Source of the DNA: Burkholderiales bacterium
GTDB lineage: Bacteria; Pseudomonadota; Gammaproteobacteria; Burkholderiales; Burkholderiaceae_E
Length of the DNA stretch: 52,871 bases
Assembly: GCA_017307915.1 (NCBI GenBank)
Contig: JAFKGG010000371.1
Span: forward strand, 1-52,871
Direction: 5' to 3'
Shown: piece by piece, positions 5,601 through 40,253 of the stretch
Layout: the number at the start of each line of letters is the position of its first letter
Position numbering within the stretch: position 1 is the stretch's first letter
Translations under genes and position numbers: made by a program
Notes under the pieces: generated by a model
Database searches by the model: none
Seen by the model: the letters and a program-made list of their open reading frames with translations, nothing else
Told to the model about the DNA's origin: nothing

Positions 5601-5601
5601 G

Positions 5602-6822: not shown

Positions 6823-6858
6823 GGCTACACTCCCCATGAATTCTAACCGCGCCCGCCG

Positions 6859-13263: not shown

Positions 13264-13276
13264 AGCTTCGAGGAAG

Positions 13277-13307
13277 GCGGCGACGATTCGGCACGCCGAA
13301 TCGCCGC
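13277..13307. terminator. Strong hairpin between convergent porin and ligD genes
   Basis: GATTCGGC and GCCGAATC (13285-13302) form a perfect eight-pair stem, extended by GCGGC with GCCGC after a small bulge. There is no T-run on either strand, so it is at best a hairpin-only, bidirectional terminator or mRNA 3'-end stabiliser. Confidence 0.45.
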
Positions 13308-14386: not shown

Positions 14387-14441
14387 GTCGTCATCGTCCT
14401 CTGGCGCAGGCCGCAAGCGGCATGCCTGCCGCGTCGTGCAA

Positions 14442-14459
14442 GTTTCATCTGTCCGTCAC
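14442..14459 (+). promoter_or_regulatory. Candidate Pho box upstream of olsB
   Basis: GTTTCAT-CTGT-CCGTCAC contains two half-sites with 5 and 6 matches to CTGTCAT/C at the correct 11-base period. No good -10 hexamer follows at ten or eleven bases (AACCGC), so the promoter is weaker evidence than the box itself. Confidence 0.45.
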
Positions 14460-14515
14460 GGCCCCGACAAACCGCTGCGGCAAGGTTTCAGGCATCGCCA
14501 CAGACGGAGATATCG

Positions 14516-24631: not shown

Positions 24632-24780
24632 TTGCGTCGCGGCGGCCCCGTTTCGAAAGGCAGTGGCGCATCGTCGCGTACGAGATCGATTTGCTGCCCA
24701 GGATCGAACTGATCCGATTCTGATGGCACAATGCGGCGGTCCGATTCGTGCCGGTACTCAGCGCGGCAAACAAGAAATCA

Positions 24781-26046
24781 ATGCGGACTCCTTTTTCACA
24801 AGCGCAGAACGACGAACTGCCCATTGCGGGGCTCGCTCGATCGGCCGCCGCAGAGACGGCCTGCGCCCGCACGTCGGCTGGCGTGCGGCCGCTGCGTCTG
24901 CTGATCGGCCTGCAGTATTACCTGCCGCACCGCACCGGCTACACATTGCACGTGCAGCGCGTGGCGCGCGCGCTGGCCGCGCGCGGCCATTCGGTGACGG
25001 TGCTCACCGCTCGCCACCTGCCGCAGCTGACGCCGCGCGAAACCGTCGAAGGCGTCGACGTCGTGCGCCTGCCGGCGCCGCTGCGCATCAGCCGCGGCGC
25101 CGTGATGCCGGGCTATCCCTGGCATGCCTGGCGGCTGGCGGCGCAGGCCGATGCGATCTGGATCAGCACGCCATTGCTCGAAACCTCGCTGTGGGCAATG
25201 GTGGCCAGGCTGCGCCGGCGCCGGCTGGTCGTCACGCACCATGGCGATCTGCACTTGCCGGCCGGCGCGCTGAACCGCTTCATCGAAGGCTTCACCTTCG
25301 CCAACTACCGGATCGCGGCGCGCGCCGCCGATGCCATCGTGGGCTACAGCGACGACTACGCGCGCTTCAGCCCCTACCTGCGCCCGTATGCCGACAAGGT
25401 CGTCGTCAACTATCCGCCGCTGGAAATACCGCAGCCCGATGCCGAAGGCACGGCGCGCTTGCGCAGCCGGCTCGCGCCGCAAGGGGGGCCGGTGATCGGC
25501 TTTGCCGGCCGCTTCGTGCGGGAAAAGCGCCCCGACGTGCTGCTGGCGGCGGCGCTGCTGCTGCGCGAGCGCTTTCCCGGCTTGCGCATCGCATTTGCCG
25601 GCCAGCACCAGATCGGCTATGAAGACACTTGGCAGCGCTGCGGCGAGCTGCTGCAGCAGGTCGGCGACACCGCGGTGTTTCTCGGGCTGATCGAAGATGC
25701 CCAAGCGCTGGCCGATTTCTATGCGGCCTGCGACGTGCTGGCCTTGCCGTCCGAATCCGAATGCTTCGCGCTGGTGCAGGTCGAGGCGATGCTGTGCGGC
25801 ACGCCGGTGGTGACCAGCGATATCCCCGGCGCGCGCGTGCCGGTGCAGCAAACCGGCATGGGGCGGCTGTTCGAGTGCGGCGATGCACGGGCGCTGGCCG
25901 AGGCCGTCGCGGCGGTGCTGGCCGAGCCGGCACGCTACCGGCGTTCACGCCTGCAGATCGAAGCGGTGTTCGACATCGAACGCACCGTCGATCGCTATGA
26001 AGCGCTGTTCGCCGGGCGTGCGCCGGCGCCGGCCGGCTCGATATGA
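24781..26046 (+). CDS. Glycosyltransferase family 4 (GT-B fold)
   Basis: 421 residues. The N-terminal acceptor domain begins LRLLIGLQYYLPHRTGYTLH and continues VARALAARGHSVTVLT, typical of GT4 enzymes. The C-terminal donor domain has GFAGRFVREKRPDVLL and the motif EXFALVQVEAMLCGTPVV in the form ESECFALVQVEAM. It transfers a sugar from a nucleotide donor to a lipid-linked or polysaccharide acceptor in the cytoplasm. The donor is unknown. I chose the ATG at 24781; a GTG at 24748 would add eleven residues. The stop overlaps the methyltransferase ATG by four bases, so these two are translationally coupled and open the envelope glycan locus. Confidence 0.9.
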   Translation: MRTPFSQAQNDELPIAGLARSAAAETACARTSAGVRPLRLLIGLQYYLPHRTGYTLHVQRVARALAARGHSVTVLTARHLPQLTPRETVEGVDVVRLPAPLRISRGAVMPGYPWHAWRLAAQADAIWISTPLLETSLWAMVARLRRRRLVVTHHGDLHLPAGALNRFIEGFTFANYRIAARAADAIVGYSDDYARFSPYLRPYADKVVVNYPPLEIPQPDAEGTARLRSRLAPQGGPVIGFAGRFVREKRPDVLLAAALLLRERFPGLRIAFAGQHQIGYEDTWQRCGELLQQVGDTAVFLGLIEDAQALADFYAACDVLALPSESECFALVQVEAMLCGTPVVTSDIPGARVPVQQTGMGRLFECGDARALAEAVAAVLAEPARYRRSRLQIEAVFDIERTVDRYEALFAGRAPAPAGSI

Positions 26047-26948
26047 ACAGCGCCGCCAAGCAGGCAGCCATCGATCCGCGGCTGGCCGCGATGATCGCGC
26101 CCGAGCTCGATCCGGCCTATCGGCGCCGCGTCGCCACCGTGATGCGCTGGCTGCCGCCGTCGGCCGATGCCGATTCCCACCTCGTCGACATCGGCTGCGG
26201 CCGGGGTTATTTCATCCACTATTACACGCTGCTGGGCCAGCACGCGATGACCGGCGTCGAGTTCGACGCGCGCATCGCGGGCATGGCGCGGCGCGCGCTG
26301 GCCGGCCGCGAACGCGTGCAGATCGTGCGTGCCGCGGCCGGTGCATTGCCGCTGGCCGACCAAAGCTGCTCGGGCGCGGTGATGAGCGAGATCCTCGAAC
26401 ACGTGCCCGATGACGTCGCAGCGTTGCGCGAGGCCTGGCGCGTGTTGCGGCCGGGTGGCGTGGTGGCGGTCACCGTACCGCACGCGCGTTATCCGTGGCT
26501 GTGGGATCCGTTCAATCGCACTTTGCAGTGGTTGCGCCTGCCGCCGATTCGCCGTGGGTCGCTGGCCGGCATCTGGGCCGAACACCTGCGGCTGTATGAC
26601 ATCGCCACGCTGCGCGGCGTGGCGCAGCGCGCCGGTTTCGAGATCGAGCAGGAGTGTTCATTCGTGCGCTGGTGCCTGCCGTTTTCGCACAACCTGCTTT
26701 ACGGCGTCGGCAAGCCGCTGCTCGAATCGGGCTGGCTGCCGAAATCGGCGGCGCTGGTGATCGATCGGCATCGCGTGCCGGACGGCGTTTCCGCCGCTGC
26801 TGGCCACGCGCCGGCCGCCGGCGGCCCCAGCCGCCTGGCGCGTGCGCTGCATGCCTTGATGAACGTCGGCGAACGCTGGAACGCCGACGATCAAGGCGTG
26901 CACGCTGCTACCGTCAATCTGTGCATCAAGCTGCGCAAACCCGCTTAG
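26043..26948 (+). CDS. SAM-dependent methyltransferase
   Basis: 301 residues with a class I methyltransferase core: motif I VDIGCGRGYF near residue 50, an acidic residue in GVEFDARIAGMARRAL, and LPLADQSCSGAVMSEILEHV followed by VLRPGGVVAVTVPH, the Methyltransf_11 pattern. The C-terminal third is poorly conserved and ends with a conserved-looking basic segment. Because it overlaps the glycosyltransferase gene by ATGA it may methylate a sugar residue or the lipid-linked glycan, but this is only context. ppk2 follows 114 bases downstream behind its own probable promoter. Confidence 0.85.
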   Translation: MNSAAKQAAIDPRLAAMIAPELDPAYRRRVATVMRWLPPSADADSHLVDIGCGRGYFIHYYTLLGQHAMTGVEFDARIAGMARRALAGRERVQIVRAAAGALPLADQSCSGAVMSEILEHVPDDVAALREAWRVLRPGGVVAVTVPHARYPWLWDPFNRTLQWLRLPPIRRGSLAGIWAEHLRLYDIATLRGVAQRAGFEIEQECSFVRWCLPFSHNLLYGVGKPLLESGWLPKSAALVIDRHRVPDGVSAAAGHAPAAGGPSRLARALHALMNVGERWNADDQGVHAATVNLCIKLRKPA

Positions 26949-26974
26949 CGGGCAAACAGGCCGCGTGCGCCGCG

Positions 26975-27008
26975 TTGTCACGCGCTCTTAATCCTTCCCC
27001 GATAAGCT
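26975..27008 (+). promoter_or_regulatory. Possible Pho box and -10 element of ppk2
   Basis: TTGTCAC (26975, 6 of 7 matches) is followed by GCGC and the poor half-site TCTTAAT, then exactly ten bases and TAAGCT (27003-27008). The spacing equals that of the porin and phoX elements, but the second half-site is weak. Confidence 0.35.
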
Positions 27009-27062
27009 GAACGGCGACCGGCATCATCGATGCCGGCCAACTGCGCAAACGGACGCATCGCC

Positions 27063-28073
27063 ATGACCTCGGAATTCTCACGGCCGGATCTGCCCGTCGG
27101 CGACCGGGAACGATCGATCGACTCCGGCATGCCGCCGTCGCACCGGGCATTCGAGGGTTCCGATGACGAAGCTGCCTGGCAACGGCTTCAGCAGGAATGG
27201 ATCGATAGCTACGACGAAGAGCTGGAGCTGGAGATCGACGACCGGATCGTGGCCGATCGGGGCGACGCGCAGCAGGACGAGCAAAGCGGCGCTTCGGCGC
27301 GCGAGCTGCGGCAGCGCTACTTCCGCGAGCTGCTGCGCTTGCAAAGCGAGCTGGTGAAGCTGCAGGATTGGGTGGTGCACAGCCGCCACAAGCTGGTGGT
27401 GCTGTTCGAGGGCCGGGATGCGGCCGGCAAGGGCGGCGTGATCAAGCGCGTGACGCAGCGCCTGAACCCGCGGATCTGCCGTGTCGCGGCGCTGCCCGCG
27501 CCCAACGACCGTGAGCGCACGCAATGGTATTTCCAGCGCTACGCGGCGCACCTGCCGGCGGCCGGCGAGATCGTGCTGTTCGATCGAAGCTGGTACAACC
27601 GGGCCGGCGTCGAACGCGTGATGGGCTTTTGCACCGACGAGGAATACGAGGAGTTTTTCCGTTCGGTGTGTGACTTCGAACGGATGCTGGTCCGCTCCGG
27701 CATCCAGCTCGTCAAGTACTGGTTCTCGATCACCGACGAGGAACAGCATCTGCGCTTCCTGAGCCGCATCCACGATCCGCTCAAGCAGTGGAAGCTGAGC
27801 CCGATGGACCTGGAATCGCGGCGGCGCTGGGAGGACTACACACGCGCCAAGGAAATCATGCTGGATCGCACGCACATCGCCGAAGCGCCGTGGTGGGTGG
27901 TGCAGGCGGTGGACAAGAAACGGGGGCGGCTGAACTGCATCGCGCATCTGCTGGAGCAGGTGCCGTACCGCGAAGTCGCGCATCCGGCGATCGTACTGCC
28001 GCGGCGCGAGTATCACGAAGACTATGTGCGCAAGCCGGTGCCGGCACAGATGATCGTGCCGCAGCGTTACTGA
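27063..28073 (+). CDS. ppk2: Polyphosphate kinase 2 (PPK2 family)
   Basis: 336 residues. The single PPK2 domain contains the Walker A motif EGRDAAGKGG followed by VIKRVTQRLNPRICRV, the Walker B region LFDRSWYNRAGVERVMGF and the lid-region sequence DPLKQWKLSPMD. This size and single domain fit class I PPK2, which phosphorylates GDP or ADP from polyphosphate, or the reverse. The first 85 residues are acidic and variable. The ATG at 27063 is preferred; an in-frame ATG at 27030 is possible. It sits inside the glycan locus but has its own promoter-like element, and it ends nine bases from the convergent epimerase gene. With ppk1 and ppx it completes polyphosphate metabolism in this window. Confidence 0.94.
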   Translation: MTSEFSRPDLPVGDRERSIDSGMPPSHRAFEGSDDEAAWQRLQQEWIDSYDEELELEIDDRIVADRGDAQQDEQSGASARELRQRYFRELLRLQSELVKLQDWVVHSRHKLVVLFEGRDAAGKGGVIKRVTQRLNPRICRVAALPAPNDRERTQWYFQRYAAHLPAAGEIVLFDRSWYNRAGVERVMGFCTDEEYEEFFRSVCDFERMLVRSGIQLVKYWFSITDEEQHLRFLSRIHDPLKQWKLSPMDLESRRRWEDYTRAKEIMLDRTHIAEAPWWVVQAVDKKRGRLNCIAHLLEQVPYREVAHPAIVLPRREYHEDYVRKPVPAQMIVPQRY

Positions 28074-28082
28074 ATCGTCACA

Positions 28083-29081: not shown

Positions 29082-29098
29082 GAAAACCAGGGTGGCGT

Positions 29099-31234
29099 TC
29101 AGCGGCTCGCCGCAGCGGGTTCGTCCAGATCGATGATCAGCGTATCGTCCGAACGATAGGCGATTCGGCCCAGCGAAGCCAGCAGTGCGGCATCGAGTTT
29201 CGGATACCGTTCACGCTCGTAGCGGCCGATGACCAGCCAGCGCGCGCCGTAGCGATCGATGATGCGCCGCGCGTCGGCCGCGTCGCGCGTTTCGTAGAGC
29301 GCAGCCACGTCGTCGCGTCGCGGCCAGACGCGATCGCCCGAGCCGCGCCAGAGCAACTCGTGCACCGGCCAGCCGAGCACGGCGGCAACGCCGGCATTGA
29401 TCGAAATGCGCCCCGCAAAGGTATAGCTGTCACCCACCGCTTCGATCAAGGGCCGGTCATCGCGCGCCTGCTGCGCCAGCCAGCGGATCGCGGCCATGTC
29501 CTGCGGGTGCGACAGCGCCAGGAAACGCTGGCCATCGAGCGTCCATTCGCGTTCACGCCAGCCGCCGAAGCCGCCTTGCAGTACGAACCAGCCGTAGTAC
29601 AAGGGCGGCACCAACGTCAGTTCGAGCAGCACGATGGTGGCCAGTCGCGGCAGCCGCCGGCCGGTACGCGCGCCGGCGCGCGCAATCAGCATTGCGATGC
29701 CGGCGCAGGCGGCCAGCGTCAGCAGCGTGAACGCCTGGAAGCCAAACTTGAACGCGGTATTGCTGCGATAGTGCTCGGGGCCGTAAATGTCTTTTACGTA
29801 GATGAATTCGGGTAGCAGCGCGAACGCCAGACCGAAGCCGGTGAGAACGATCAGCATCCGGTGCTCGGCGCTGCGGGCGATGCCCGGGGGGGCGATGCGC
29901 GCCGCGCGCCAGATCAGTACGCAGGCGGCCAGCGCCAGCAAGGCCTGCAGTCCATACAGGATCAGCCACTGCCAGACGGGGGTATGCGAATGCGTGAACC
30001 CGAAGCCTGCCGCGAAGCTGCGAAAGCGCAGCAGGAACGGCGCCACCACGATGGCCGACAGCAGCGCCGCGCCGATGCCGTCGGCCAGTCGCGCGCGAAT
30101 CGCCGCGGCATCGCGCCGGTACAGCGCGGCGCCGAAACGGGCCAGCAGCAAGCTGCCCAGCAGTGCGGCATACATCAGTGCGTCCCAGGCATTGCTCATC
30201 GCGAAGGTGCCGACCAGCGCGGCGGCGCCGGCCAGCCAGCCGCGCGCGCCGCTGCGTAGCCAGCCCAGCACCAGCGCCACGAACGACAGCACCAGCGGCA
30301 GGTTCAGCAGGTGCGCGTGCAGGTCGCCGACGTAGAAGGCATAGGCCGGAAACTCGTGGATCAGTTTGTCGCCGGTGGGCGGATCGAAGCCGACGAAGCG
30401 CGTCGGGTCCGACAGCAGGAAGGCCTGGCGCGGCGCTTCGACCCAGCCGAAATCGACCAGCCAGGGTTTGACGAAGCCATAGAGAAAACCGTGCACGTTG
30501 CCGCCCAGCGTCAGCCACAAGGCGGCGACGGCGGCCATCGTGCCGCGCAGCCGTTCGGGCAGTGCGCGCGCCAGTTCGGCGACGACGGCAAAGGCAAGCT
30601 GCCAGCACAGCGCGAACAGCGTGGCCAGCATCAGGTTGTAGCCGGCCGCGGGCGGCACGCCGCTCAGGTGGCACAGGAAAGCCGTCAGATAGTGGCCGAA
30701 GTAATAGTAGTTGATCGGCTCGCCGGCGAACCAGGGGTCGAACGGCGGCATCATCGACGACAGATACGCGGCGTTGACGAAGCCGAAGTCCATGAACTTT
30801 TCCAGCCCGATCAGATCGCGGTTGAAGCCGCGCATGGCCAGATAGAACAGGAACGGCAGGACAAAGCGCAGTTCGGCGGCAAACAGCGTCGGCCAGTCGT
30901 GGCGAAGAGCAGGGGTCTGCAATGACCTTGCGCTCGGTTCGGCTCGCGCGCGCAGCCGCGTCCACGCGAGCACGGCGGCCGCCACCGCCAGCGTCGATCC
31001 CCAGGCTCCGGCCGTGCCGTTCATCGGGATCCAGTGCGCCATGCTCCACAGCGGATACGCGCATGCCACCAGCATCAAGGGCCGCGCGATCGGCCAGCCC
31101 AGGTCGAGCCAGCCGGCGCAGGCAGTGCGCAACGCGCGCCAGCCGATGGCACTGAGCATCAGCAGCACCGCCCACCAGCGCAGCAGCTGCAGGAACGAGC
31201 CGTCGGACCAGGGCAGTATCAGTGCGTCCATCAT
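29099..31234 (-). CDS. DUF2298 (YYY family) multi-pass membrane protein
   Basis: 711 residues with about 12-15 hydrophobic helices. It is a full-length single-domain member of the Chlor_Arch_YYY / DUF2298 family, with INYYYFGHY at residues 174-182, HEFPAYAFYVGDLHAH at 293-308 and RSNTAFKFGFQAF further on. The C-terminal soluble part has LYETRDAADARRIIDRYGA and GRYERERY, also seen in the 1740-residue protein. The fold resembles GT-C membrane glycosyltransferases, with a conserved acidic/His motif (GDLHAH) as a possible catalytic site; no function is established. The start overlaps the GT2 stop by ATGA and the epimerase follows, an operon that suggests sugar transfer across or at the inner membrane. 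Confidence 0.85.
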   Translation of the reverse strand: MMDALILPWSDGSFLQLLRWWAVLLMLSAIGWRALRTACAGWLDLGWPIARPLMLVACAYPLWSMAHWIPMNGTAGAWGSTLAVAAAVLAWTRLRARAEPSARSLQTPALRHDWPTLFAAELRFVLPFLFYLAMRGFNRDLIGLEKFMDFGFVNAAYLSSMMPPFDPWFAGEPINYYYFGHYLTAFLCHLSGVPPAAGYNLMLATLFALCWQLAFAVVAELARALPERLRGTMAAVAALWLTLGGNVHGFLYGFVKPWLVDFGWVEAPRQAFLLSDPTRFVGFDPPTGDKLIHEFPAYAFYVGDLHAHLLNLPLVLSFVALVLGWLRSGARGWLAGAAALVGTFAMSNAWDALMYAALLGSLLLARFGAALYRRDAAAIRARLADGIGAALLSAIVVAPFLLRFRSFAAGFGFTHSHTPVWQWLILYGLQALLALAACVLIWRAARIAPPGIARSAEHRMLIVLTGFGLAFALLPEFIYVKDIYGPEHYRSNTAFKFGFQAFTLLTLAACAGIAMLIARAGARTGRRLPRLATIVLLELTLVPPLYYGWFVLQGGFGGWREREWTLDGQRFLALSHPQDMAAIRWLAQQARDDRPLIEAVGDSYTFAGRISINAGVAAVLGWPVHELLWRGSGDRVWPRRDDVAALYETRDAADARRIIDRYGARWLVIGRYERERYPKLDAALLASLGRIAYRSDDTLIIDLDEPAAASR

Positions 31235-31989
31235 GAGCGCGGCGGCAATGAACGGTGAAAGCGCAGCAACTCGCGCAAGGCCGTGCGGCAGAACGCGATC
31301 AGCCGGCGCCAGCGCAACGAGGCCTCGCCGGCGCTGCGCGCGAAATGCTGCACGTCCTGTTCGGCGATGCGCAGGCCGCGGCGGTGCAGATAGACGGTCA
31401 GCAGCACCGAAGGAATACGCGGCTGCGGCGGCATCGCGGCGGTCGCTTCCAGGGCCAGCGTGCGCGGCAGCAGCTTGTAGGGCACATTGGCATCGGTGCT
31501 GTGCACGCCCAGCAGGCCGCTCAACGCGCCGCGTAACAGCCGGCTGAGCACCAGCCGGTGACGCGGATCATGGCGTCGGCGTCGCACGCCAAGCACGGCA
31601 TCGTTTTGTCTGGCCAATTGCCAGGTGACGGCGAAGTCTTGCAGGCCGATCTGCCGGTCGCTGTCCAGCAGCAGGCACCAGTCGCCGCGCGCTTCGTGAA
31701 TGCCGCGTACCAGCGCCGGCCCATGCCCGGCATTGGCTTGCGTCACGACCCGTACGCGCGGATCGCCATCGGCAACGCGCTGCGCGACGGCGCCGGTGGC
31801 ATCGCGGCTGCCGTCGTCGACGATCACCAGTTCGGCCGACGGCACCACCGCGAATACATGCTCGATGACGTCGTCGATCGCTGCGGCGATGTTCTCGGCC
31901 TCGTTGTAGGCGGGCATCAGCACCGACAAGGTGGGAGCGGTTCGTACGCTGCCGGCACTGTCCGATGCGGGTGCTACACTGGCTCGCAC
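31231..31989 (-). CDS. Glycosyltransferase family 2
   Basis: 252 residues with a GT-A fold: LSVLMPAYNEAENI near residue 22, AELVIVDDGSRDAT, and LLLDSDRQIGLQDF, where DSD is the metal-binding DXD-like motif. There is no C-terminal membrane pair, unlike GtrB enzymes. It is likely to charge a polyprenyl phosphate or extend a lipid-linked glycan on the cytoplasmic face. The start is a GTG at 31989 with AGGAAAG seven bases upstream. It is the first gene of the minus-strand operon with the YYY protein and the epimerase, and is divergent from the FAD oxidoreductase gene with only 24 bases between starts, so the two operons share a control region. Confidence 0.9.
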   Translation of the reverse strand: MRASVAPASDSAGSVRTAPTLSVLMPAYNEAENIAAAIDDVIEHVFAVVPSAELVIVDDGSRDATGAVAQRVADGDPRVRVVTQANAGHGPALVRGIHEARGDWCLLLDSDRQIGLQDFAVTWQLARQNDAVLGVRRRRHDPRHRLVLSRLLRGALSGLLGVHSTDANVPYKLLPRTLALEATAAMPPQPRIPSVLLTVYLHRRGLRIAEQDVQHFARSAGEASLRWRRLIAFCRTALRELLRFHRSLPPRS

Positions 31990-32013
31990 GTCGATGCTTT
32001 CCTAGAGGGATGG

Positions 32014-33342
32014 ATGATCAAGGCAAGCCGCAACACCTTCGTTCTCGGTGGTGGCGTTACTGGCTTGGCGGCCGGCATTGCTTCGGGGCTGCCGGTGTAT
32101 GAACGCGAACGGTTCGCCGGCGGTATCTGCGCGTCTTATTATCTGCGCTCGGGTAGCAGCGAACGGCTGCCGGCGGCGCCGGCCGACGGCAACGCATGGC
32201 GTTTCGAACACGGCGGCGGCCATTGGATCTTCGGCGGCCATCCCGATGTGCTGGCGCTGCTCGAAACGATGACGCCGGTCGAACGCATCGCGCGCCGCTC
32301 GTCGGTGTTCTTTCCCGATGAGCAGCGCTACGTCGGCTTTCCGCTGCAGCACAACCTTGCGCAACTGCCCTCGGCGACGGCGCAGCGCGCGCTCGAAGAG
32401 CTGCTTGCCGAGCGTGGCCACGCCGCGCAGACGATGGCGCAATGGCTCGATGAACGTTTCGGGCCGACGCTGGGCGAACTGTTCTTTCATCCGTTTCATG
32501 GCGCCTACACGGCCGGTCTGTGGCGCTCGATCGCGCCGCAAGACGGCTACAAGACACCGCTGGATCGCGGCCAAGTGCTGCGCGGCGCGTTCGGGCAGGC
32601 GGCGCCGGCGGGCTACAACGTCGACTTCCTGTATCCGCGCGACGGGCTCGATGCATTGATGCGCGCGCTGGCGGCCCAGGCCGATCTGCGCCTGGGGCAC
32701 GAGATCGTGCGCATCGATGCGCCGCGCCGCGAGTTGCGCTTCGCCGACGGCACCACGCTGGCCTTCGACCGGCTGCTGGCCACCTTGCCGCTGAATCGCC
32801 TGATGGCGCTGGCGGGGCTCGACGTGGGCGAAGCGCCCGATCCCTACACTTCGGTGCTGGTGCTGAACATCGGTGCCGTGCGCGGGCCGCGCTGCCCTGA
32901 CGATCACTGGCTGTATCTGCCGCGCACGCAGGCCGGTTTTCATCGGGTGGGTTTCTACAGCAACGTGGCCGAGCATTTTCTGCCGGCCAGCGTGCGTGGC
33001 CGCGGCAGCCACGTGTGCCTGTACGTCGAGCGCTCCTATCCGGGCGGTGCGCGTCCCTCGGCCGACGAGCAGGCCGCCTGCGCGGCGGCGGTCGTCGAAG
33101 AATTGCAGCGCTGGGGCTTCATCGAAGAAACGCAGGCGCTCGATGCCTCGTGGGTCGACGTTGCTTATACCTGGCATCGCCCAGGCAATCGCTGGGTCGA
33201 ACGCTCGATCGCCGCGCTGGCCGAGCACGGCATTCGGGTGGCCGGCCGCTATGCGCGCTGGCACTTTCAGGGAATTACCGATTCGTTGCGCGACGGCCTG
33301 CTGGCCGGGCATGCGCTGCGCTTTGCCGCGCAAGCGGAATGA
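32014..33342 (+). CDS. FAD-dependent oxidoreductase, amine-oxidase/PPOX-like
   Basis: 442 residues. The dinucleotide-binding motif is at the N-terminus (FVLGGGVTGLAAG) and a second FAD-contact region is FEHGGGHWIFGG. The central YNVDFLYPRDGLDALMRAL and the C-terminal GRYARWHFQGITDSLRDG match the flavin amine oxidase / protoporphyrinogen-oxidase-like group. Such proteins occur in polysaccharide clusters (UDP-galactopyranose-mutase-like members) but the substrate is unknown. I chose the ATG at 32014 with GAGG five to eight bases upstream, because the longer frame runs antisense through the GT2 gene. Its divergence from the GT2-YYY-epimerase operon places it in the glycan locus. Confidence 0.82.
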   Translation: MIKASRNTFVLGGGVTGLAAGIASGLPVYERERFAGGICASYYLRSGSSERLPAAPADGNAWRFEHGGGHWIFGGHPDVLALLETMTPVERIARRSSVFFPDEQRYVGFPLQHNLAQLPSATAQRALEELLAERGHAAQTMAQWLDERFGPTLGELFFHPFHGAYTAGLWRSIAPQDGYKTPLDRGQVLRGAFGQAAPAGYNVDFLYPRDGLDALMRALAAQADLRLGHEIVRIDAPRRELRFADGTTLAFDRLLATLPLNRLMALAGLDVGEAPDPYTSVLVLNIGAVRGPRCPDDHWLYLPRTQAGFHRVGFYSNVAEHFLPASVRGRGSHVCLYVERSYPGGARPSADEQAACAAAVVEELQRWGFIEETQALDASWVDVAYTWHRPGNRWVERSIAALAEHGIRVAGRYARWHFQGITDSLRDGLLAGHALRFAAQAE

Positions 33343-33384
33343 GGCCGACCGCGCGACGCGGGCATCGCGGTCAGCCGGCGAGGA

Positions 33385-33879
33385 TCAGTGGCGGCGCGTC
33401 GAGCGCAAGCCGAGCCAGGCCACCAGCGCCACCAGCAGGTGCATTGCCACCAGGCTCGCCATCGATCCGCTGGGTACCTGCACCGGCGTAGGCGTGGCGT
33501 AGGGCGTGATCGTCGCGGTGATCTGCAGCGTCGGCGTGCTGGTGTTCGTCGAGGTCAGCAGGGGGGTGACCGTCGGCGTATTGGTTGGCGTGAAACTGGG
33601 GGTGATCGTCGGTGTATTGGTCGGCGTGAAAGTGGGAGTGACGGTCGGCGTATTGGTCGGGGTGAAAGTGGGGGTCGGCGTGGGCGTATTGGTCGGCTGC
33701 GCCTGTACGCGCTGCGCATGCATACCCATCGCAAAGACCGTTGCCAGCACCAGCGCGCCCGTCATCTTGCCGATTGCCTGGGCACCGCTTTGCCGCCGGC
33801 TGTGCAGCGGTGCGGCCGCAATCGGCAGGCGGCGCTCAGAAAAAGCGAGGCGGCCGACGTCATTCATGGTGTTGGACAT
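33385..33879 (-). CDS. Exported Thr/Pro-repeat protein with C-terminal anchor
   Basis: 164 residues with no known domain. A signal sequence ([16 protein letters not shown], residues 40-55, cleavage near VQAQ) is followed by four to five copies of a 12-residue repeat, PTNTPT-x-TPTFT, at about residues 62-118. Then comes a Thr-rich stretch, a Pro-Ser-Gly-Ser segment, one membrane helix ([18 protein letters not shown]) and the basic end RSTRRH. The tripartite end resembles C-terminal sorting signals processed by exosortases or related transpeptidases, but no known motif such as PEP or IPTL is present. Most Thr are in a Pro context typical of O-glycosylated stalks. It lies between the FAD oxidoreductase and the GT39-like fusion gene and may be their acceptor (inference). 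Confidence 0.75.
33526..33696 (-). repeat. 36-bp tandem coding repeats of the Thr/Pro protein
   Basis: The minus strand encodes repeats of PTNTPT followed by TPTFT-like units; on the plus strand GTATTGGT-CGG-GTGAAA-type units recur about every 36 bases. The copies differ by several bases, so the array is not freshly duplicated. It is protein-coding and not a CRISPR array. Confidence 0.85.
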
Positions 33880-33906
33880 TTTGCATCATCCCCGGGTTAT
33901 CCGACC

Positions 33907-33936
33907 AGTATAATTCGACGCTCAGCAAGTCTACAA
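33907..33936 (-). promoter_or_regulatory. Candidate promoter of the Thr/Pro-repeat gene
   Basis: On the minus strand TTGTAG (33931-33936), 18 bases and TATACT (33907-33912) precede the gene by 28 bases. The same AT-rich patch reads TATAAT on the plus strand (33909-33914) without a good -35, so it might also serve the fusion gene downstream. Confidence 0.4.
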
Positions 33937-34050
33937 GCGACCCGCCGCGCTGCGCGCGGGATTTCATGAATTGGGTCACAGCGGCCCTGGCTTGGCTGGA
34001 GATGCGATGGCGAGCGTGTTTCACGCCTCGTTGAAACCGATACTCGGCGA

Positions 34051-34076
34051 CCCCCCTGATTCATGGGGGTCGACGC
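34051..34076. repeat. Short hairpin repeat, copy 2
   Basis: CCCCCCTGA, five bases, then GGGGGTCGACGC; GACCCCC (34049-34055) and GGGGGTC (34065-34071) form a seven-pair stem. Nearly the same sequence stands at 283-307. The loop contains the first possible ATG (34063) of the fusion gene, which could hinder initiation there. Confidence 0.5.
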
Positions 34077-37000
34077 GAGTCGCCGCCGTCTTCATCGCTT
34101 TTTCCTTCTGCCACGCTACGTGATGACACGTGCCGGTGGCCTGGCTTCGCCGGTGCTCAGGCTGGCGGCGATCGTCGCGATCCTGATCGTCGGCGCTTTT
34201 TTCCGCTTCAGCGGCCTGAACTGGGACGACGCCAGCCAGCCGCATCCCGACGAGCGCTACATGAACCAGGTCACCAGCGCGCTGCATGGCGGCGTGCTGG
34301 TGCCGGCCGGCGCCGACGAGGCGGCGCGGGCCGCGCATCGGGCCGAATGCCTGGCGCGTCATCGCGCTAGCGACGGGGTCGGCGGCTGGTTCGATACGCG
34401 TTGCAGCGACCTGAATCCGGCCAACGTCGGCTATCCGGGCTATCCCTACGGCCAACTGCCGCTGGTGGCCGTTCGTCACCTAGCCGAAGCGGCCGCCGCA
34501 CTCAGCGGCCGGGCCGATGCCGCCCGCTACGACGGCATCGCGCTGGTGGGCCGCGTGTTTTCGGTGATCGCCGATCTGATCAGCATCGCGGCGATCGTGC
34601 TGCTCGGCCGCTTGCTGTGGGGATTGCGCATCGGGCTGCTGGCCGCATTGCTGTATGCGCTGTCGGTGCATGCCATCCAGGTCGCGCATTTCTGGACGGT
34701 GGATGCGGCGGCCACGCTGCTGGCGACCTGGAGCCTGCTGTTTCTGGTGCGATTGGCGCGCTTTGCACGGCCCGGCGATGCGCTGGCTTTCGGCGTGGCT
34801 TGCGGTCTGGCTTTGTCGAGCAAGATCAGTGTGCTGCCGCTGGTCGCGCTGCTGCCGATCGCCGCGTTGCTGGCGCCTTTGCGCACGCGCTTCGTCGAGC
34901 CGCCGGGCTGGGGCACGCGCGCTGCTTTGGCGCTGCCGGCGCTGCTGCTCGGGCTGGCCGGGACGGCGCTGGCGTTCCGGCTCGCCTCGCCGTATGCGTT
35001 CAATGGCCCCGGGCCGTTCGATCTCGGCCTGTCGCCGGCTTTCATCGAACAGGTGGCGGCGTCGCGCCGGCTTGCCTCGGGCGTCGTCGACGTGCCGTCG
35101 AACTGGCAGTGGCTGGCGCGCAGCGCCTGGTTCGCGCCCGGCCGCGACATGCTGGTCTGGGGGTTGGGGCCGCTGGCCGGAGCCGCCGCGCTGGTGGGTA
35201 TGTGCGTGGCCGGCTGGCGGCTGCTGCGCGCCGTCACGCCGATGCAGCGCGCGCGTGCCATCGTCTGGTGCTGGGTGGCCGGGTACTTCTTCTGGATGGG
35301 GCAGCAGTGGGTGGCGTCGATGCGCTACTTCCTGCCGATCTATCCGGCGCTGTGCCTGCTGGCGGCGGCGTGGCTGGGGCAATGGTGGCGGGCGCGGCGG
35401 GTGGCGAGCGCGGCGGGCCGCTGGTGGCCGGCCGTGGGCATTGCACTGGTCGTCGGCAGTTCGTTGGCCTGGGCGCTGGCGTTTCGGCCGGTGCACACGA
35501 CGCTGCACCCCTACGTGGCAGCCACGCATTGGATCCTGCGTCATGTGCCGGCCGGTGTATCGGCGTCGTTGCCGGGTGCTGACCGGGCGCTGCTGATCAA
35601 CTGGCCTGCCGCCGGTTCCTTCGGCGACGGCATTGCACCCGCGCTCGCCGCCAGGACCTTCGCGCCGGCCAGTGGCACGATCGACCGGCTGCGGCTGCAT
35701 CGCGTGGCGCTCGAGCGCGCATCGGTCGACGGCGCGCCGCCGCGCATATTGCTGCGGCTGCTCGATGCCGACGGCAAGCCGATCGCCACCACCGCGCGCG
35801 AGCCCTTGCCTTTGGACGCGCAAGCCCCGACGCCGGCGCGCCTGCACGGCATCGAGTTGAAGCTGGTCGCGCCGGTGACCCTGCAGGCCGATGCGCTGTA
35901 CCAGTTGCAGGTCGAGGTCGACGGCGGCGTGATCGGCTTGTCCGGCTCGTCGATCGCGCAGGAAGGGCCATGGAACGATAGCGTGCCGACGCGCGTGCCG
36001 TGGTTGAGCTCCGAGGTGGCGCTCGCTGCCGATGCGCCGTCGGGCACGGCGAGCCGTTTTGCGCCGAAGCTCGATGCATTCGCCGAGCGTTTCTACCGTT
36101 CGGTCGATCTGCTGATGGTCGGCAATGACGATGCCGACAAGCGGCGCCGGCTGCTCGACGGGCTCGACGACAGCGAATGGCTGGTCGTGCCGAACAATCG
36201 CTTCTACGGCGCGATGCAATGGAACCCGTTGCGCTTTCCGTTGTCGATCGCCTTTTACGATGCGCTGTTCGACGGCTCGCTGGGCTTCGCGCGGCATCGT
36301 GTCGTGGCATCGATGCCGCGGCTGGCCGGCATCGAGATCCGCGATCAGGTGCTGCCGCGGCCCGGCGAAGGCGTGACCCCGCGCCGCGCGCTGATGGCCT
36401 GGGCGCCCGAGGAAGCGTTCAACGTCTACGACCATCCCACTGTTTTCATCTTTCGCAAGAGCGATGCGTATTCACGCGAGCGGGCCGAGCGCTTGTTCGC
36501 CGGCATCGAGCTGACGACGATCGACGAGGCGCTGAACGCGCCGGCGCCGCAGGGGGCAGGGCGCATCGATTGGCCGACGCTGGCCGCGCGCGGCGCACCC
36601 GATGGCCTGCTGCTGCGCGAGGCGACGATGCCGGCGGGGGACGCAGCCAGCCGTTTCCCTCAGGGCACGGCCCAGACCTTTGCCGCGATACTGCTTTGGT
36701 ACCTGTGCTCGCTGCTGCTCGGCGTGATCGCCTGGGCATGGCTGGCGCCGGCCTGCGCCGGGCTGGCCGATCGCGGCTGGGGCATCAGCCGTGTCGCCGG
36801 GCTGGCACTGCCGGCCTTTGCTGCCTGGCTGCTGGCGCAGCTTGGCGTGCCGGCGTGGAGCCGCGGCGGCCTGTTCGTGATCGTGCTGCTGCTGGCCTTG
36901 CCCGCGGCCCGGCAGTGCCGGCAAGCGTGGCGCACGCGTCGCCACGCAGCGGCAAACGAGGCGGCCCTTGCCTTGCCCTCGCGCCGGTACCTGCTCGCCT

Positions 37001-39285
37001 TCGAAGCCGCGTTCGTCGCGCTGTTTGCGATCGGCCTATTGCTGCGGCTGGCGGCCCCGGATCTGTGGGCGCCGGTGCTGGGCGGCGAAAAACCGATGGA
37101 CTACGCGCTGCTCAACGCGGTGCTGGGCAGCGCCACGTTCCCGCCGGCTGACCCGTGGTTCAGCGGCGGCCGCGTCAATTACTACTACTTCGGCTGGGTG
37201 CTGGCGGGCGTACCGATCAAGCTGCTCGGCGTGGCGCCGGCAACGGCGTTCAACCTGGCGCTGGCGAGCTGGTTCGCGATGACCGGCATGGCCGCCGCCG
37301 CGCTGGCCTGGAACGTCTGCCGTATCGCTGCGCTGCCGCTCGGTCGTCGTGCCGCCTGCATCGGTGCCGGCGCGGCGCTGGTGGCTACGGTGCTGCTGGG
37401 CAACCTCGATGGACCGCGCGCGTGGTGGCCGAGTCTTGAGGCGGCAGCGGCTGCGATCGACGCCGACCCCGGCGCGCCGGCTGGGGCGGGCACCTCGGGT
37501 GCGTCGGGCGCAGTGATGCGCGCGCTGCTAGCCAGCGCCGAGCGCTGGTACTGGGCACCGTCGCGAACGGTCGCCGAGCGCGCCGGCAATGGCGCCGAGA
37601 TCAACGAGTTTCCGGCGTTCTCGTTTCTGTATGGCGACCTGCATCCGCATCTGCTGGCGATGCCTTTGCAATTGGCGCTGTTGACCTTGATGCTGGCGAT
37701 GATCCGTCTACCGCTGCCGGGGGCGCGATCTTCCGCTTGCGCAAGCGTGCATGGCAGCGCCGGTGCAAGCGCATCACCGAACCGTTCGGCACCACCGCGC
37801 ATCTTCGCCGCCTCGATCGGAGCGCTGACGTCGGCACTCGCCTTCACTGGCGTCGGCATCGCGCTCTTGCGCATGACCAACAGCTGGGATTGGCCGCTGT
37901 ATCTGCTGTTCGGCCTGCTGGCCGCGGGGCTGGCCGGTTGGCGCTTGCCGCCGGCATGGCGCTGGCCATCGCAGGCGCCTGCAGCAGGCGGCGAATCTTG
38001 GGTGCAGGCCGCGGCCGCAGCCCTTGCGCTGTTCGTCGTGCAACTGCTGGCGGCGTGGCCGTTCAGTGCCCTGTTCGCCACCGGTTCGGTGGGGCTCTCC
38101 TGGTATGGCGGTTCGCGCACCTCCTTGTCGAGCTGGCTGCTGATGCACGGCTGGTTCATCGCTGTGCTTGTTTTGTGGGCGTGGCATCTGTCACGTACCG
38201 GCCCGCGCACTGTCCCAGGCCTTGCCACGGGCGTAACCAATGGCACGATCGCGGGCCCAATCGCGGGCATTACCGCGCCCGAACCATGGCCGTGGCTGCC
38301 GCGCGGCTTGCGCCTGCTGCGCTGGCTCGGTCTGGGCTATACGCTCGCGGCCTTGCTCTGGCATTGGTTCGTGCCGGCCGCGACCGTACCCGCGTTCGCC
38401 CTGCAGATGGCCTTGCTTGCCTGGTTGCTGGAACTGGCCTGGCGCTGGCGTGACCGAACCGGCACGCTGCTCGGTCTGCTGGCCGGCGCGGCCGGCTGCG
38501 CCATCGCGTTCGGCGTCGAATGGCTGGTGGTCGGGCAGGACATGGGGCGCATGAACACCTTCTTCAAATTCCATCTGCAGAGCTGGCTGTTGCTGGCCGT
38601 GGCTGCCGGTGTGGCGATCGCGCATCTGGCGGCGCTCGGTCGCGCTGCACGTCCCGCGCTTGCGCTGGTCCTCATCACCGCTCTGCCGGCGCTGGCCTTT
38701 CTGCCGCTCGGCGCGATCGGGAAGATGCAGAGCCGCTTCGATGCGTCGGCCCCATGGACACTGAACGGCGAGGCGTTCCTGGAATATGCGCGCTTGAATA
38801 CCGGCAACGCGACGATCGCGCTGGCCGGCGATGCGCAACTGATCGACTGGCTGCGCCGGCACGGGCGGCCGCACGACGTGATCCTGGAAGCGCAACTGCC
38901 CGAATACCGCTGGGGCAGCCGCATCGCGTCGTTCACCGGCCTGCCGACGTTGCTCGGCTACCGCCATCATCAGACGCAGCAGCGGCCGTTGCCGGCGCTG
39001 GGCCAGGCGATCGAGCTGCGCCGGCGCAACGTTGCTGCACTGTATGAAGCGGCCGACCCGCAGCGCGTCATCGAAACGCTGCGCCATTACCGCGTCCGTT
39101 TCGTCGTCGTTGGCGCGCTCGAACGCGCCGTCTATCCGGCCGCCGGGCTGGCCAAGTTCGCCGCGCTGGCGCAGGCCGGCGCGTTGCGCGTGGCGTTCAG
39201 CGCCGGCGACGATCTCATCTACGAGTTGCCGGGAATGCTCTTATCGCCGGAGACGGGCGAGCCGGTTCGCGGGCCGGCTTGGTGA
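34063..39285 (+). CDS. Giant membrane protein: GT39-like transferase fused to a YYY (DUF2298) domain
   Basis: 1740 residues (1720 if the ATG at 34123 is used; neither start has a clear ribosome binding site). The N-terminal half resembles GT39/PMT-type GT-C glycosyltransferases: an early membrane helix, then the acidic loop LNWDDASQPHPDERYMNQ at about residues 52-69 with the paired acidic residues used for catalysis in such enzymes, YPGYPYGQLPL, and a row of helices including AHFWTVDAAATLLATW. Residues about 540-860 are largely soluble and probably periplasmic. From about 980 it is a second YYY domain: VNYYYFGWV near 1037, NEFPAFSFLYGDLHPHL near 1179, MNTFFKFHLQSW near 1495, then the C-terminal soluble part. 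It is predicted to transfer lipid-linked sugars in the inner membrane. Its end overlaps the convergent GtrB-like gene by 67 bases. Confidence 0.85.
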   Translation: MGVDASRRRLHRFFLLPRYVMTRAGGLASPVLRLAAIVAILIVGAFFRFSGLNWDDASQPHPDERYMNQVTSALHGGVLVPAGADEAARAAHRAECLARHRASDGVGGWFDTRCSDLNPANVGYPGYPYGQLPLVAVRHLAEAAAALSGRADAARYDGIALVGRVFSVIADLISIAAIVLLGRLLWGLRIGLLAALLYALSVHAIQVAHFWTVDAAATLLATWSLLFLVRLARFARPGDALAFGVACGLALSSKISVLPLVALLPIAALLAPLRTRFVEPPGWGTRAALALPALLLGLAGTALAFRLASPYAFNGPGPFDLGLSPAFIEQVAASRRLASGVVDVPSNWQWLARSAWFAPGRDMLVWGLGPLAGAAALVGMCVAGWRLLRAVTPMQRARAIVWCWVAGYFFWMGQQWVASMRYFLPIYPALCLLAAAWLGQWWRARRVASAAGRWWPAVGIALVVGSSLAWALAFRPVHTTLHPYVAATHWILRHVPAGVSASLPGADRALLINWPAAGSFGDGIAPALAARTFAPASGTIDRLRLHRVALERASVDGAPPRILLRLLDADGKPIATTAREPLPLDAQAPTPARLHGIELKLVAPVTLQADALYQLQVEVDGGVIGLSGSSIAQEGPWNDSVPTRVPWLSSEVALAADAPSGTASRFAPKLDAFAERFYRSVDLLMVGNDDADKRRRLLDGLDDSEWLVVPNNRFYGAMQWNPLRFPLSIAFYDALFDGSLGFARHRVVASMPRLAGIEIRDQVLPRPGEGVTPRRALMAWAPEEAFNVYDHPTVFIFRKSDAYSRERAERLFAGIELTTIDEALNAPAPQGAGRIDWPTLAARGAPDGLLLREATMPAGDAASRFPQGTAQTFAAILLWYLCSLLLGVIAWAWLAPACAGLADRGWGISRVAGLALPAFAAWLLAQLGVPAWSRGGLFVIVLLLALPAARQCRQAWRTRRHAAANEAALALPSRRYLLAFEAAFVALFAIGLLLRLAAPDLWAPVLGGEKPMDYALLNAVLGSATFPPADPWFSGGRVNYYYFGWVLAGVPIKLLGVAPATAFNLALASWFAMTGMAAAALAWNVCRIAALPLGRRAACIGAGAALVATVLLGNLDGPRAWWPSLEAAAAAIDADPGAPAGAGTSGASGAVMRALLASAERWYWAPSRTVAERAGNGAEINEFPAFSFLYGDLHPHLLAMPLQLALLTLMLAMIRLPLPGARSSACASVHGSAGASASPNRSAPPRIFAASIGALTSALAFTGVGIALLRMTNSWDWPLYLLFGLLAAGLAGWRLPPAWRWPSQAPAAGGESWVQAAAAALALFVVQLLAAWPFSALFATGSVGLSWYGGSRTSLSSWLLMHGWFIAVLVLWAWHLSRTGPRTVPGLATGVTNGTIAGPIAGITAPEPWPWLPRGLRLLRWLGLGYTLAALLWHWFVPAATVPAFALQMALLAWLLELAWRWRDRTGTLLGLLAGAAGCAIAFGVEWLVVGQDMGRMNTFFKFHLQSWLLLAVAAGVAIAHLAALGRAARPALALVLITALPALAFLPLGAIGKMQSRFDASAPWTLNGEAFLEYARLNTGNATIALAGDAQLIDWLRRHGRPHDVILEAQLPEYRWGSRIASFTGLPTLLGYRHHQTQQRPLPALGQAIELRRRNVAALYEAADPQRVIETLRHYRVRFVVVGALERAVYPAAGLAKFAALAQAGALRVAFSAGDDLIYELPGMLLSPETGEPVRGPAW

Positions 39286-40253
39286 GGCGCCGCGCCGTCA
39301 TCCGGAAAGCGCTCGCGCACCAGATACAAGGGCCGCTGCTTGACTTCACCATATATGCGGCCGACATATTCCCCGATCACGCCGATGCCCAGCAGCTGGA
39401 TGCCGCCGAGGAACAAACTGATCACGATCAGCGACGCATAACCGGGCACGTCGACGCCTTGCACCAGCGTGCGCACGACGATGAACGAGGCGTACAGAAA
39501 CGCCAGGCCGGCAATCGCCACGCCGCAATAGATCCAGAAGCGCAGCGGCGCGGTGCTGAAGCTCAGCATGCCGTCGAGCCCGAAATCGACCAGCCCGCGC
39601 AGCGTGAACTTGCTGGCGCCGCTGCTGCGCGCGCCGCGCACGTAGTCGACCGAGGTGGTCGAAAAGCCCAGCCACGCGAACATGCCCTTGAGGAAGCGCC
39701 TCCGTTCGGGCAGCAGCAGCAGCGCATCGACCACCTTGCGGTCGAGCAGCCGGAAATCGCCGACGTCGTCGGGTAACGGCGTATCGGCCAACCGATTGTG
39801 CAGCCGGTAGAACAGACGGCTGCCGAGCCGCTTCCAGTAACCATCGCCGTCGCGCGCCGTGCGCCGCGCCAGCACCACCTCGAAGCCTTCGCGCCAGCGC
39901 GCCACCAGCTCGGGGATCAGTTCGGGCGGGTCTTGCAGGTCGGCATCGATCGGCACCACTGCGTCGCCGCGCGCTTCCTGCAATCCGGCGGTCAGCGCGG
40001 CTTCCTTGCCGAAGTTGCGCGACAGGTCGATCACCCGGAAGCGCGCGTCGGCGCGTGCGGCGGCCAGCAGCATCGGCCAGGTCGCGTCGCGGCTGCCGTC
40101 GTTGACGCAGATGATCTCGACTTCCATCTGCAGGTCGTGCACGGCGTCAGCCGCGGCGCGCACGCGCCGGCAGAACGTTTCGACCGCGGCTTCCTCGTTA
40201 TAGAAAGGGGCGACTATCGAAAGCAGCGGCAGATCCGGCGAACGTCGGTCCAT
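39219..40253 (-). CDS. GtrB/DPM-like polyprenyl-phosphate glycosyltransferase (GT2)
   Basis: 344 residues. The GT2 domain has LSIVAPFYNEEAAVE near residue 10, ICVNDGSRDAT, SRNFGKEAALTAGLQEARG and the metal-binding DADLQDPPELIPEL. Two membrane helices follow at about residues 240-310 (WIYCGVAIAGLAFLYAS and IVISLFLGGIQLLGIGVIGEYVGRIY), the hallmark of GtrB, ArnC and dolichol-phosphate mannose synthase-like enzymes. They attach a sugar to undecaprenyl phosphate, the donor form used by GT-C/GT39 transferases, so it is a plausible partner of the fusion protein whose gene it overlaps tail to tail. The ATG at 40253 is used; the longer frame upstream is antisense to the LysR gene. Confidence 0.9.
   Translation of the reverse strand: MDRRSPDLPLLSIVAPFYNEEAAVETFCRRVRAAADAVHDLQMEVEIICVNDGSRDATWPMLLAAARADARFRVIDLSRNFGKEAALTAGLQEARGDAVVPIDADLQDPPELIPELVARWREGFEVVLARRTARDGDGYWKRLGSRLFYRLHNRLADTPLPDDVGDFRLLDRKVVDALLLLPERRRFLKGMFAWLGFSTTSVDYVRGARSSGASKFTLRGLVDFGLDGMLSFSTAPLRFWIYCGVAIAGLAFLYASFIVVRTLVQGVDVPGYASLIVISLFLGGIQLLGIGVIGEYVGRIYGEVKQRPLYLVRERFPDDGAAPHQAGPRTGSPVSGDKSIPGNS

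Follow-up and report, generated by a model that had tools for sequence, protein, structure and literature searches.

A gene cluster with two DUF2298 (YYY) proteins of predicted GT-C fold and a candidate Thr/Pro-rich acceptor in a Burkholderiales genome

Introduction

Which function do the membrane proteins of the family DUF2298 have? This question is raised by a contig of 52,871 nucleotides from a Burkholderiales bacterium (JAFKGG010000371.1, assembly GCA_017307915.1), the whole of which was analyzed and is referred to as the window. It codes for two such proteins, here called YYY proteins. One stands alone, and the other is the C-terminal half of a fusion protein. Both are found among genes for sugar metabolism, and a gene for an exported Thr/Pro repeat protein is adjacent to the fusion gene. 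The family consists of large, conserved membrane proteins and was found here in archaea, Chloroflexota, Acidobacteriota, Clostridia and some proteobacteria. Its archaeal members include one in Haloferax volcanii, which was used as a control. No published function for DUF2298/Chlor_Arch_YYY was found in the literature searched, which also contained no glycosylation system of this kind with YYY proteins, as the original prediction for this DNA had stated. The firmest advance made here concerns DUF2298 itself, for which a GT-C fold is predicted and whose genes recurrently lie among genes for lipid-linked sugars. For the window, we propose an extracytoplasmic glycosylation cluster based on GT-C enzymes, probably acquired, with the Thr/Pro repeat protein as its likeliest local acceptor. 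We consider this proposal about as likely as not.

Predicted fold of the YYY proteins and of the fusion protein

The following features are central (aa, amino acids):

29099..31234, minus strand: single YYY protein (DUF2298/TIGR03662), predicted GT-C, 711 aa; family score and AlphaFold2 fold
34063..39285, plus strand: fusion protein, 1740 aa; N-half and YYY half
34063..36672, plus strand: fusion N-half (FusN), a PMT/OST-like (OST, oligosaccharyltransferase) predicted GT-C module with an extracytoplasmic beta domain; AlphaFold2 fold and profile matches
36673..39285, plus strand: fusion C-half (FusC), the second YYY (DUF2298) module; TIGR03662 and PF10060 scores

Both YYY proteins exceed the curated cut-offs of the family models, which are 300.25 bits for TIGR03662 (432.5 bits for the single YYY protein, 466.3 bits for the fusion C-half) and 27.8 bits for PF10060 (316.5 and 314.7 bits). 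The YYYxG motif, presumably the source of the family name Chlor_Arch_YYY, is kept (Y176 in 49, Y177 in 50, Y178 in 48 and G180 in 49 of 50 aligned sequences). The AlphaFold2 model of the single YYY protein, computed from a 50-sequence alignment, has a pLDDT of 89.1 and a pTM of 0.93. The original prediction had proposed a structural comparison of both YYY proteins with GT-C enzymes, and its outcome agrees with a GT-C fold: for the single YYY protein, all 15 fold matches in the PDB at E<=1e-3 are GT-C enzymes or OST/translocon chains. Thirteen are titled as GT-C enzymes or OST. The matches comprise the DPY19 C-mannosyltransferase, the oligosaccharyltransferases AglB, OST and PglB, and ArnT. The other two are translocon-entry chains (8b6l_I and 9n9j_I), which we take to be the catalytic subunit of OST (STT3). 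For the C-half of the fusion, the GT-C fold is predicted from its homology with the single YYY protein.

The model of FusN (pLDDT 85.5, pTM 0.88) has 33 PDB fold matches at E<=1e-3, all of them GT-C enzymes or OST/translocon chains. They comprise OST, Emb arabinosyltransferases (among the best matches), Pmt4, ArnT, ALG9/12, PglB and three translocon chains, which we again assume to represent OST. A beta-rich region extends from about residue 499 to 633. A profile built from 40 FusN sequences matches PMT1 (5.4e-5), AglB (9.1e-4) and ArnT (1.7e-3). The sequence HPDER (residues 61-65, including D63-E64) is invariant in 40/40 sequences, and its DE pair presumably corresponds to the catalytic motif of PMT and ArnT. 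The fusion had been described as GT39-like/YYY. Its YYY half is confirmed by the family score, but FusN from the window has no match to the Pfam PMT models (PF02366, PF13231) at E<=0.01, and NCBIfam makes no direct GT39 call for the fusion. Counterparts of FusN do pass the Pfam cut-offs (PMT_2 with 45.1 bits at locus L035, PMT with 35 bits at locus L101). Thus, FusN is called PMT-like, a label that it owes to relatives, profile and fold, and is not filed as GT39. The models of the single YYY protein and of FusN support their prediction as GT-C-fold proteins. The fusion would then carry two GT-C modules in one chain of 1740 residues, the second by homology to the single YYY protein.

Several YYY residues are invariant (E145, Y177, E294, D304, R490 and N492 in 50/50 sequences) or nearly so (D or E at residue 149, H306 and H308, each in 49/50). 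In the models, E145 of the YYY protein (with D/E at 149) and D63-E64 of FusN are conserved after a long helix, which makes them candidates for the acidic catalytic residue that GT-C enzymes have in the first extracytoplasmic loop. The YYY profile has no convincing solved relative among PDB sequences. There are 27 weak matches, mostly to triosephosphate isomerases, which we attribute to chance (the best, a chemokine receptor fusion, has an E of 0.03). When the YYY profile was compared with the FusN profile, hhalign returned a probability of 10.5, so the argument for common descent is one from the fold.

These two profile results would also fit a different role, in which YYY proteins are GT-C-fold scramblases for lipid-linked sugars or non-catalytic partners, with FusN as the only catalytic module. 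It also fits this role that a Pfam scan of ten cluster proteins returned no flippase. We consider it improbable. The invariant or nearly invariant charged residues and histidines (E145, D304, R490; H306, H308) resemble those of enzymes, and nine 20-kb YYY stretches from the same order as the window contain no FusN-type match.

A separate observation concerns a clostridial locus with a close YYY relative (L100). A 777-aa membrane protein encoded near that YYY gene, at 5066-7399(+), scores 27.4 bits against the Pfam model Dpy19 (cut-off 27.2 bits). It is possibly a bacterial relative of the C-mannosyltransferases.

Gene layout and putative sugar supply

The other genes of the cluster are:

24748..26046, plus strand: GT4 glycosyltransferase; PF00534 9.2e-27, relatives in YYY loci up to 480 bits
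26043..26948, plus strand: S-adenosylmethionine-dependent methyltransferase (MT), overlapping the end of the GT4 gene; PF08241 1.5e-18
27030..28073, plus strand: PPK2 polyphosphate kinase; TIGR03707 370.5 bits
28083..29081, minus strand: short-chain dehydrogenase/reductase resembling UDP-glucuronate decarboxylase (UDP-xylose synthase, UXS); best PDB match UDP-glucuronate decarboxylase 1, E 1.2e-102
31231..31989, minus strand: soluble GT2 with a distant likeness to ArnC and dolichol-phosphate-mannose synthase; PF00535 5.7e-26
31993..33342, plus strand: FAD enzyme resembling UDP-galactopyranose mutase (UGM); PDB matches
33385..33879, minus strand: exported Thr/Pro repeat protein with a C-terminal membrane helix and an RR tail, candidate acceptor; TNTPT repeats
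39219..40253, minus strand: GtrB-like GT2, putative polyprenyl-phosphate sugar synthase; homology to sll0501, two hydrophobic helices

The inventory of the original prediction (two GT2, GT4, MT, UXS-like protein, FAD enzyme, single YYY protein, fusion and Thr/Pro repeat protein) was recovered in full from Pfam, NCBIfam and open reading frame (ORF) evidence. It had omitted the PPK2 gene, which lies inside its stretch. This gene is probably a passenger of the island; it shares 53-60% identity with genus copies located elsewhere, and it has no match in 108 YYY loci. The repeat gene had been placed directly before the fusion gene and the GtrB-like gene directly after it. The adjacency holds, but strands alternate across the three genes, which are therefore neighbors and not one operon. 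Repeat and fusion genes are transcribed divergently, and their listed ORF starts are 183 bp apart. Fusion and GtrB genes are convergent, with an overlap of 67 bp at the end of the fusion gene. A scan of the sequence for promoters and terminators returned sites no more frequently than in shuffles.

The GtrB-like protein matches the solved glycosyltransferase sll0501, which we take to be GtrB, over residues 11-314 (E 9.9e-101). It has two C-terminal hydrophobic helices, starting from residues 239 and 267, and scores 292.7 bits against the PgfS model, below the equivalog cut-off of 500. The claim that one of the two GT2 enzymes has GtrB-type membrane helices thus holds, and the other GT2 has no helix above the hydropathy threshold. 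The PDB matches of this soluble GT2 are led by chondroitin synthase (5e-12), with ArnC (4e-9) and dolichol-phosphate-mannose synthase (5e-8) following. The UXS-like protein aligns with UDP-glucuronate decarboxylase 1 (2b69) over residues 18-327. For the FAD enzyme, all 14 of the PDB sequences matched at E<=0.01 are UGM (best 4.8e-13, residues 65-332), and its NCBIfam matches include no UGM model. It is plausible that the GtrB, UXS, GT2, GT4, MT and FAD genes form a sugar-supply set. From what is known of their families, the supply genes would fit the synthesis of pentose or furanose sugars and the attachment of sugars to polyprenyl phosphate.

Recurrence in other genomes

A scan of the species-genome collection returned 110 relatives, of which 80 loci were kept. 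By record title, these are mostly Chloroflexota; the set also includes an Actinomycetota bin (L092), a Bryobacterales bin (L101), three Clostridia and two archaeal records. The 73 loci that are treated as Chloroflexota are the 80 without L092, L100, L101, L104, L109, L110 and L111. This count retains L053, which is titled Borreliella garinii, probably wrongly, and codes for a GT-C/YYY fusion of 1904 aa like those from Chloroflexota. An N-half fused to YYY is found in 68/80 loci, and of the 56 with room for a second YYY gene, 27 have one immediately after the first. Upstream sequence of 5.5 kb or more is available for 47 fusion loci, and 17 of these have a GT4 gene (>=150 bits) and 14 a GT4-MT pair; GT4 and MT matches are both absent from 39 control stretches (0/39 each). 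UXS is a weak marker of the cluster, since UXS-like genes also occur in controls (three ORFs of at least 75 bits in the 39 stretches).

Other phyla also have parts of the sugar-supply set alongside YYY genes. At L101, MT, UXS, GT4, FAD, GT2, YYY, FusN and FusC are all found together. Two clostridial loci, L110 and L100, code for a related FAD protein of the PRK07233 type close to YYY, and GtrA and GtrB are also present at L110. In Acidobacteriota, 27/347 genomes have DUF2298 (24 over the cut-off), and GtrB occurs in 7/28 YYY stretches vs 0/20 controls. Within the order of the window, a DUF2298 match is found in 12/300 genomes, nine of them over the cut-off. In the nine 20-kb YYY stretches, which come from the other eight genomes, GtrB (>=310 bits) is near YYY in 8/9 vs 1/19 controls. 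Five loci of this order (L180, L236, L237, L239 and L241) have a YYY+YYY+GtrB module.

Further GT-C-type genes were also seen near YYY genes. L035 has PMT_2 and GT87 genes nearby, and at L166 (Acidobacteriota), the gene at 1694-4762(-) beside the YYY gene codes for a PMT/PMT_2 domain fused to NHL repeats.

The Thr/Pro repeat protein as candidate acceptor

The repeat protein had been described as small, exported, Thr/Pro-repetitive and membrane-anchored, in agreement with its TNTPT repeats, its single C-terminal helix above the hydropathy threshold (at residue 135) and a signal peptide recognized by eye. Its four 12-residue units differ pairwise by 14, 8 and 31 changes at codon positions 1, 2 and 3. 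Changes mainly at third positions indicate that the repeat is real at the protein level. A role as PEP-CTERM/exosortase substrate was considered and dropped, as no CTERM sorting-signal model matches at E<=0.05. Independently of this, the genome of the window (G000) has an exosortase match (contig C367, 21349-22101; PF09721, 235 bits), and the tail of the repeat protein, a helix followed by RR, resembles a sorting signal.

The repeat protein is a candidate for the glycan acceptor, supported, though not proven, by a genome-level association and a few co-localizations. The motif TPTNTPT has three matches in G000, all three in the repeat gene, and is present in two other genomes of the 74 from the family. 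In the L092 genome, a single gene for an exported protein, located between the YYY and FAD genes, accounts for 13/13 TPTNTPT matches. At L152 (Acidobacteriota), a gene between YYY and GT2/FAD codes for an exported-type protein of 457 aa that combines Thr/Pro repeats with cadherin/Fn3-like domains. Large Thr/Pro-bearing proteins are encoded near YYY at L157 and L158; by eye they are PilY1-like, although Pfam finds only PA14 in L157. At L180, the YYY+YYY+GtrB module is flanked by genes for GH19 and GH18 chitinases (4542-6299(-) and 12870-14879(+)) with CBM5/12 and long Thr/Pro linkers. In total, 30 YYY stretches from 24 genomes have 38 TPTxTPT matches vs 2.8 expected by length; they fall into five stretches, and 21 are in a single gene of L092. 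The original prediction would have been refuted if repeat and fusion genes never co-occurred in related genomes, which is not the case.

The genome-level association was seen within the order. The TPTxTPT count, which refers to DNA matches and not to proven exported proteins, is 53-177 in 8/9 DUF2298 genomes (G000: 17), vs at least 53 in 10/291 others (p 2.6e-10). Three genomes with sub-cut-off DUF2298 matches (counts 0, 0 and 2) were scored as negatives. With G000 excluded, the fraction is 8/8 (p 3e-11). Counted by family, it is 2/3 vs 3/48 (p 0.02). Within family f5, the seven positives have 53-177 matches and the two negatives 5 and 15 (p 0.03). Among YYY genomes, TPTNTPT was found in 34/50 and TPTxTPT in 22/24; these figures are not counted as support, since the searches covered only YYY-positive genomes of the phyla concerned.

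A number of results weigh against the reading as a whole. The Foldseek TM-scores of the YYY model are low to modest (0.33-0.42 by query), so that the GT-C match is one at superfamily level. The cluster genes fall into several transcription units. In the Chloroflexota-dominated set of 80 loci, GtrB (1/80), FAD (2/80) and GT2 (2/80) are rare, so that the full gene set of the window is not the norm in Chloroflexota. Seven of the nine DUF2298 genomes of the order belong to one family (f5), and relatedness confounds the genome-level link. This link fails in family f21, where six genomes of genus g36 have TPTxTPT counts of 65-173 without DUF2298. In G000 itself, the count of 17 is no excess over a backwards-pattern control (18). 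For the other eight positives (G170, G209, G246, G276, G286, G305, G334 and G362), the controls are 5, 2, 18, 11, 22, 41, 1 and 46, two of which (41 and 46) are sizeable. Outside Chloroflexota, a local Thr/Pro ORF occurs in 5/39 YYY stretches (646 kb) vs 0/25 controls (402 kb; Fisher p 0.08), and thus 34/39 have none. No Thr/Pro ORF is present in the stretches examined for L101, L153, L165, L166 and L175, all of them loci with FAD and/or GT2 genes. A local enrichment in Chloroflexota was rejected, as Thr/Pro ORFs are found in 2/73 YYY loci vs 3/18 other stretches; the complete set of 80 has three (L051, L083 and L092).

The claim that the cluster glycosylates the repeat protein thus stands in part. 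GT-C folds, supply set and Thr/Pro co-localizations agree with it, but the repeat protein is no more than a candidate acceptor, and the local excess has a p of 0.08. As an observation apart, genus g36 of f21 and family f32 have TPTxTPT counts of 65-199 without a DUF2298 match, so that these genomes may have another glycosylation route, or none.

The main rival makes the Thr/Pro gene a mere neighbor, or at most an anchor. In this reading, the GT-C enzymes of the cluster would use polyprenyl-phosphate sugars one after another to assemble a lipoglycan or surface polysaccharide, much as arabinan is built by the Emb/Aft enzymes of mycobacteria. This rival is quite conceivable, although we do not favor it. 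The UXS-like and UGM-like enzymes suggest pentose or furanose sugars, Emb arabinosyltransferases rank among the best fold matches of FusN, more GT-C-type genes are found near L035 (PMT_2, GT87) and L166 (PMT_2), and Chloroflexota lack the local Thr/Pro enrichment. It leaves unaccounted for the order-wide link of DUF2298 with Thr/Pro-rich genomes, the Thr/Pro chitinases around the minimal module of L180, and the confinement of all TPTNTPT matches to the cluster in G000 and L092.

Origin of the cluster

The genome of the window has 6.11 Mb in 521 contigs (completeness 94.42%, contamination 4.75%), and the window is the whole of contig C136. DUF2298 is present in 1/74 genomes of the family and in 1/18 of the genus. 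At E<=1e-20, the YYY half of the fusion is found in 1/398 genomes of the phylum. The island is absent from all four genus stretches (18-20 kb) that were compared. Probably, the cluster was acquired horizontally by this lineage. A tree built from 143 YYY domains places the single YYY protein with three Clostridia (support 1.0) and the YYY half of the fusion deep within a clade of 77 fusion tips (support 0.895). Because the two occupy different positions, no single donor is named. Carriage of the fusion YYY half by plasmids was rejected (no match among 72,556 plasmid records), and no tRNA was found beside the island within the window.

The rarity of DUF2298 in the family would also fit an artefact, either a contaminant contig in the metagenome bin or a dead island, and so would the genome size, as G000 (6.1 Mb) exceeds the genomes of its genus. 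This explanation is largely refuted, and we regard it as very unlikely. Contigs from the genus align collinearly with the left part of the window (67-84% DNA identity), which counts against a binning error, and the reading frames of the cluster are open. In addition, full-length matches in 61 genomes show 75-81% identity of glpK from the window to same-genus genomes vs at most 73% to other genera of the family. When plasmid records are searched, the glycerol kinase of the window comes closest to those of Sphaerotilus and Aquabacterium, in line with Burkholderiales. Concerning size alone, 6.1 Mb vs 2.6-4.7 Mb in the listed genus genomes may reflect a large gene gain or a composite bin.

Proposed mechanism and significance

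Domain identities, GT-C folds and the partial recurrence of the gene set were computed directly. From these, we infer a scheme that includes every catalytic step, the identity of the sugars, their flipping, the acquisition route and the acceptor. Nucleotide sugars would be made in the cytoplasm by UXS and the mutase-like FAD enzyme. GtrB, and perhaps also the second GT2, would load sugars onto polyprenyl phosphate, and the lipid-linked sugar would then reach the periplasmic face. There, three GT-C modules (FusN, the YYY half of the fusion and the single YYY protein) would transfer sugars outward, and GT4 and the methyltransferase could extend or cap the glycan. The anchored Thr/Pro repeat protein would be the likeliest local acceptor, since a GT39 enzyme from Caldicellulosiruptor is required for the glycosylation of cellulases with Thr/Pro linkers. 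The anatomy given in the original prediction was right. Of the readings considered for the window, the one that it proposed is the best, and this reading may about as well prove wrong as right.

A more far-reaching proposal is speculative, and we hold it to be rather unlikely. According to it, DUF2298 would be a new GT-C family that O-glycosylates Thr/Pro-rich exported proteins and linkers in many phyla, using GtrB-type donors. The fusion would be a two-site enzyme that starts and extends a glycan with pentose or furanose sugars supplied by UXS and the mutase.

The predicted fold, together with the recurring context of lipid-sugar synthases, turns DUF2298 proteins into testable glycosyltransferases. 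The genome-level Thr/Pro link offers an acceptor for such tests, and thus a first testable job for the family. Secreted chitinases and cellulases are enzymes for which linker glycosylation is important, and the chitinase genes that flank YYY+YYY+GtrB at L180 are a place where this question could be addressed.

Comparison with known systems

Within DUF2298, the two proteins of the window are regular members by curated cut-offs and YYYxG motif. What is added here is the predicted GT-C fold and the recurring gene context, and in its strong form the family is rare in the phylum (see above). A gene-neighborhood table for a Chloroflexi genome, as excerpted, lists DUF2298 alongside PMT2 proteins (PMC8756737). 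With the characterized GT-C enzymes (DPY19, AglB/STT3, PMT, ArnT and Emb), the YYY proteins share the fold by prediction, and their conserved acidic residues, located ahead of a loop helix in the model, may be a further common feature. They differ in lacking detectable sequence homology, and the fusion differs in its two predicted GT-C modules within 1740 residues.

In Caldicellulosiruptor bescii, deletion of the GT39 gene Cbes_1864, which is located near the CelA gene, abolished protein glycosylation, and the linkers of CelA consist mainly of alternating Thr and Pro (PMC6151902). Common to both systems is a PMT-family membrane enzyme (PMT-like in the window) encoded near a secreted Thr/Pro protein. 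The C. bescii enzyme is, however, a single protein of 556 residues, and that account, as excerpted, describes no DUF2298, fusion or UXS/UGM-like genes. In Streptococcus mutans, pgfS, pgfM1, pgfE and pgfM2, located beside the acceptor gene cnm, modify surface proteins (PMC5856776). This resembles the window in having a membrane GT2 (to which GtrB from the window is related through the PgfS model), two multi-pass membrane proteins (PgfM1 being of PMT-2 type), a sugar epimerase and an adjoining acceptor gene (a candidate one in the window). It differs in that the excerpted source does not describe PgfM1/M2 as DUF2298 and mentions no UXS/UGM-like or GT4/MT genes, and the GtrB of the window misses the PgfS cut-off. 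By analogy, the cluster would work like the C. bescii GT39 and the Pgf systems, while being a member of neither.

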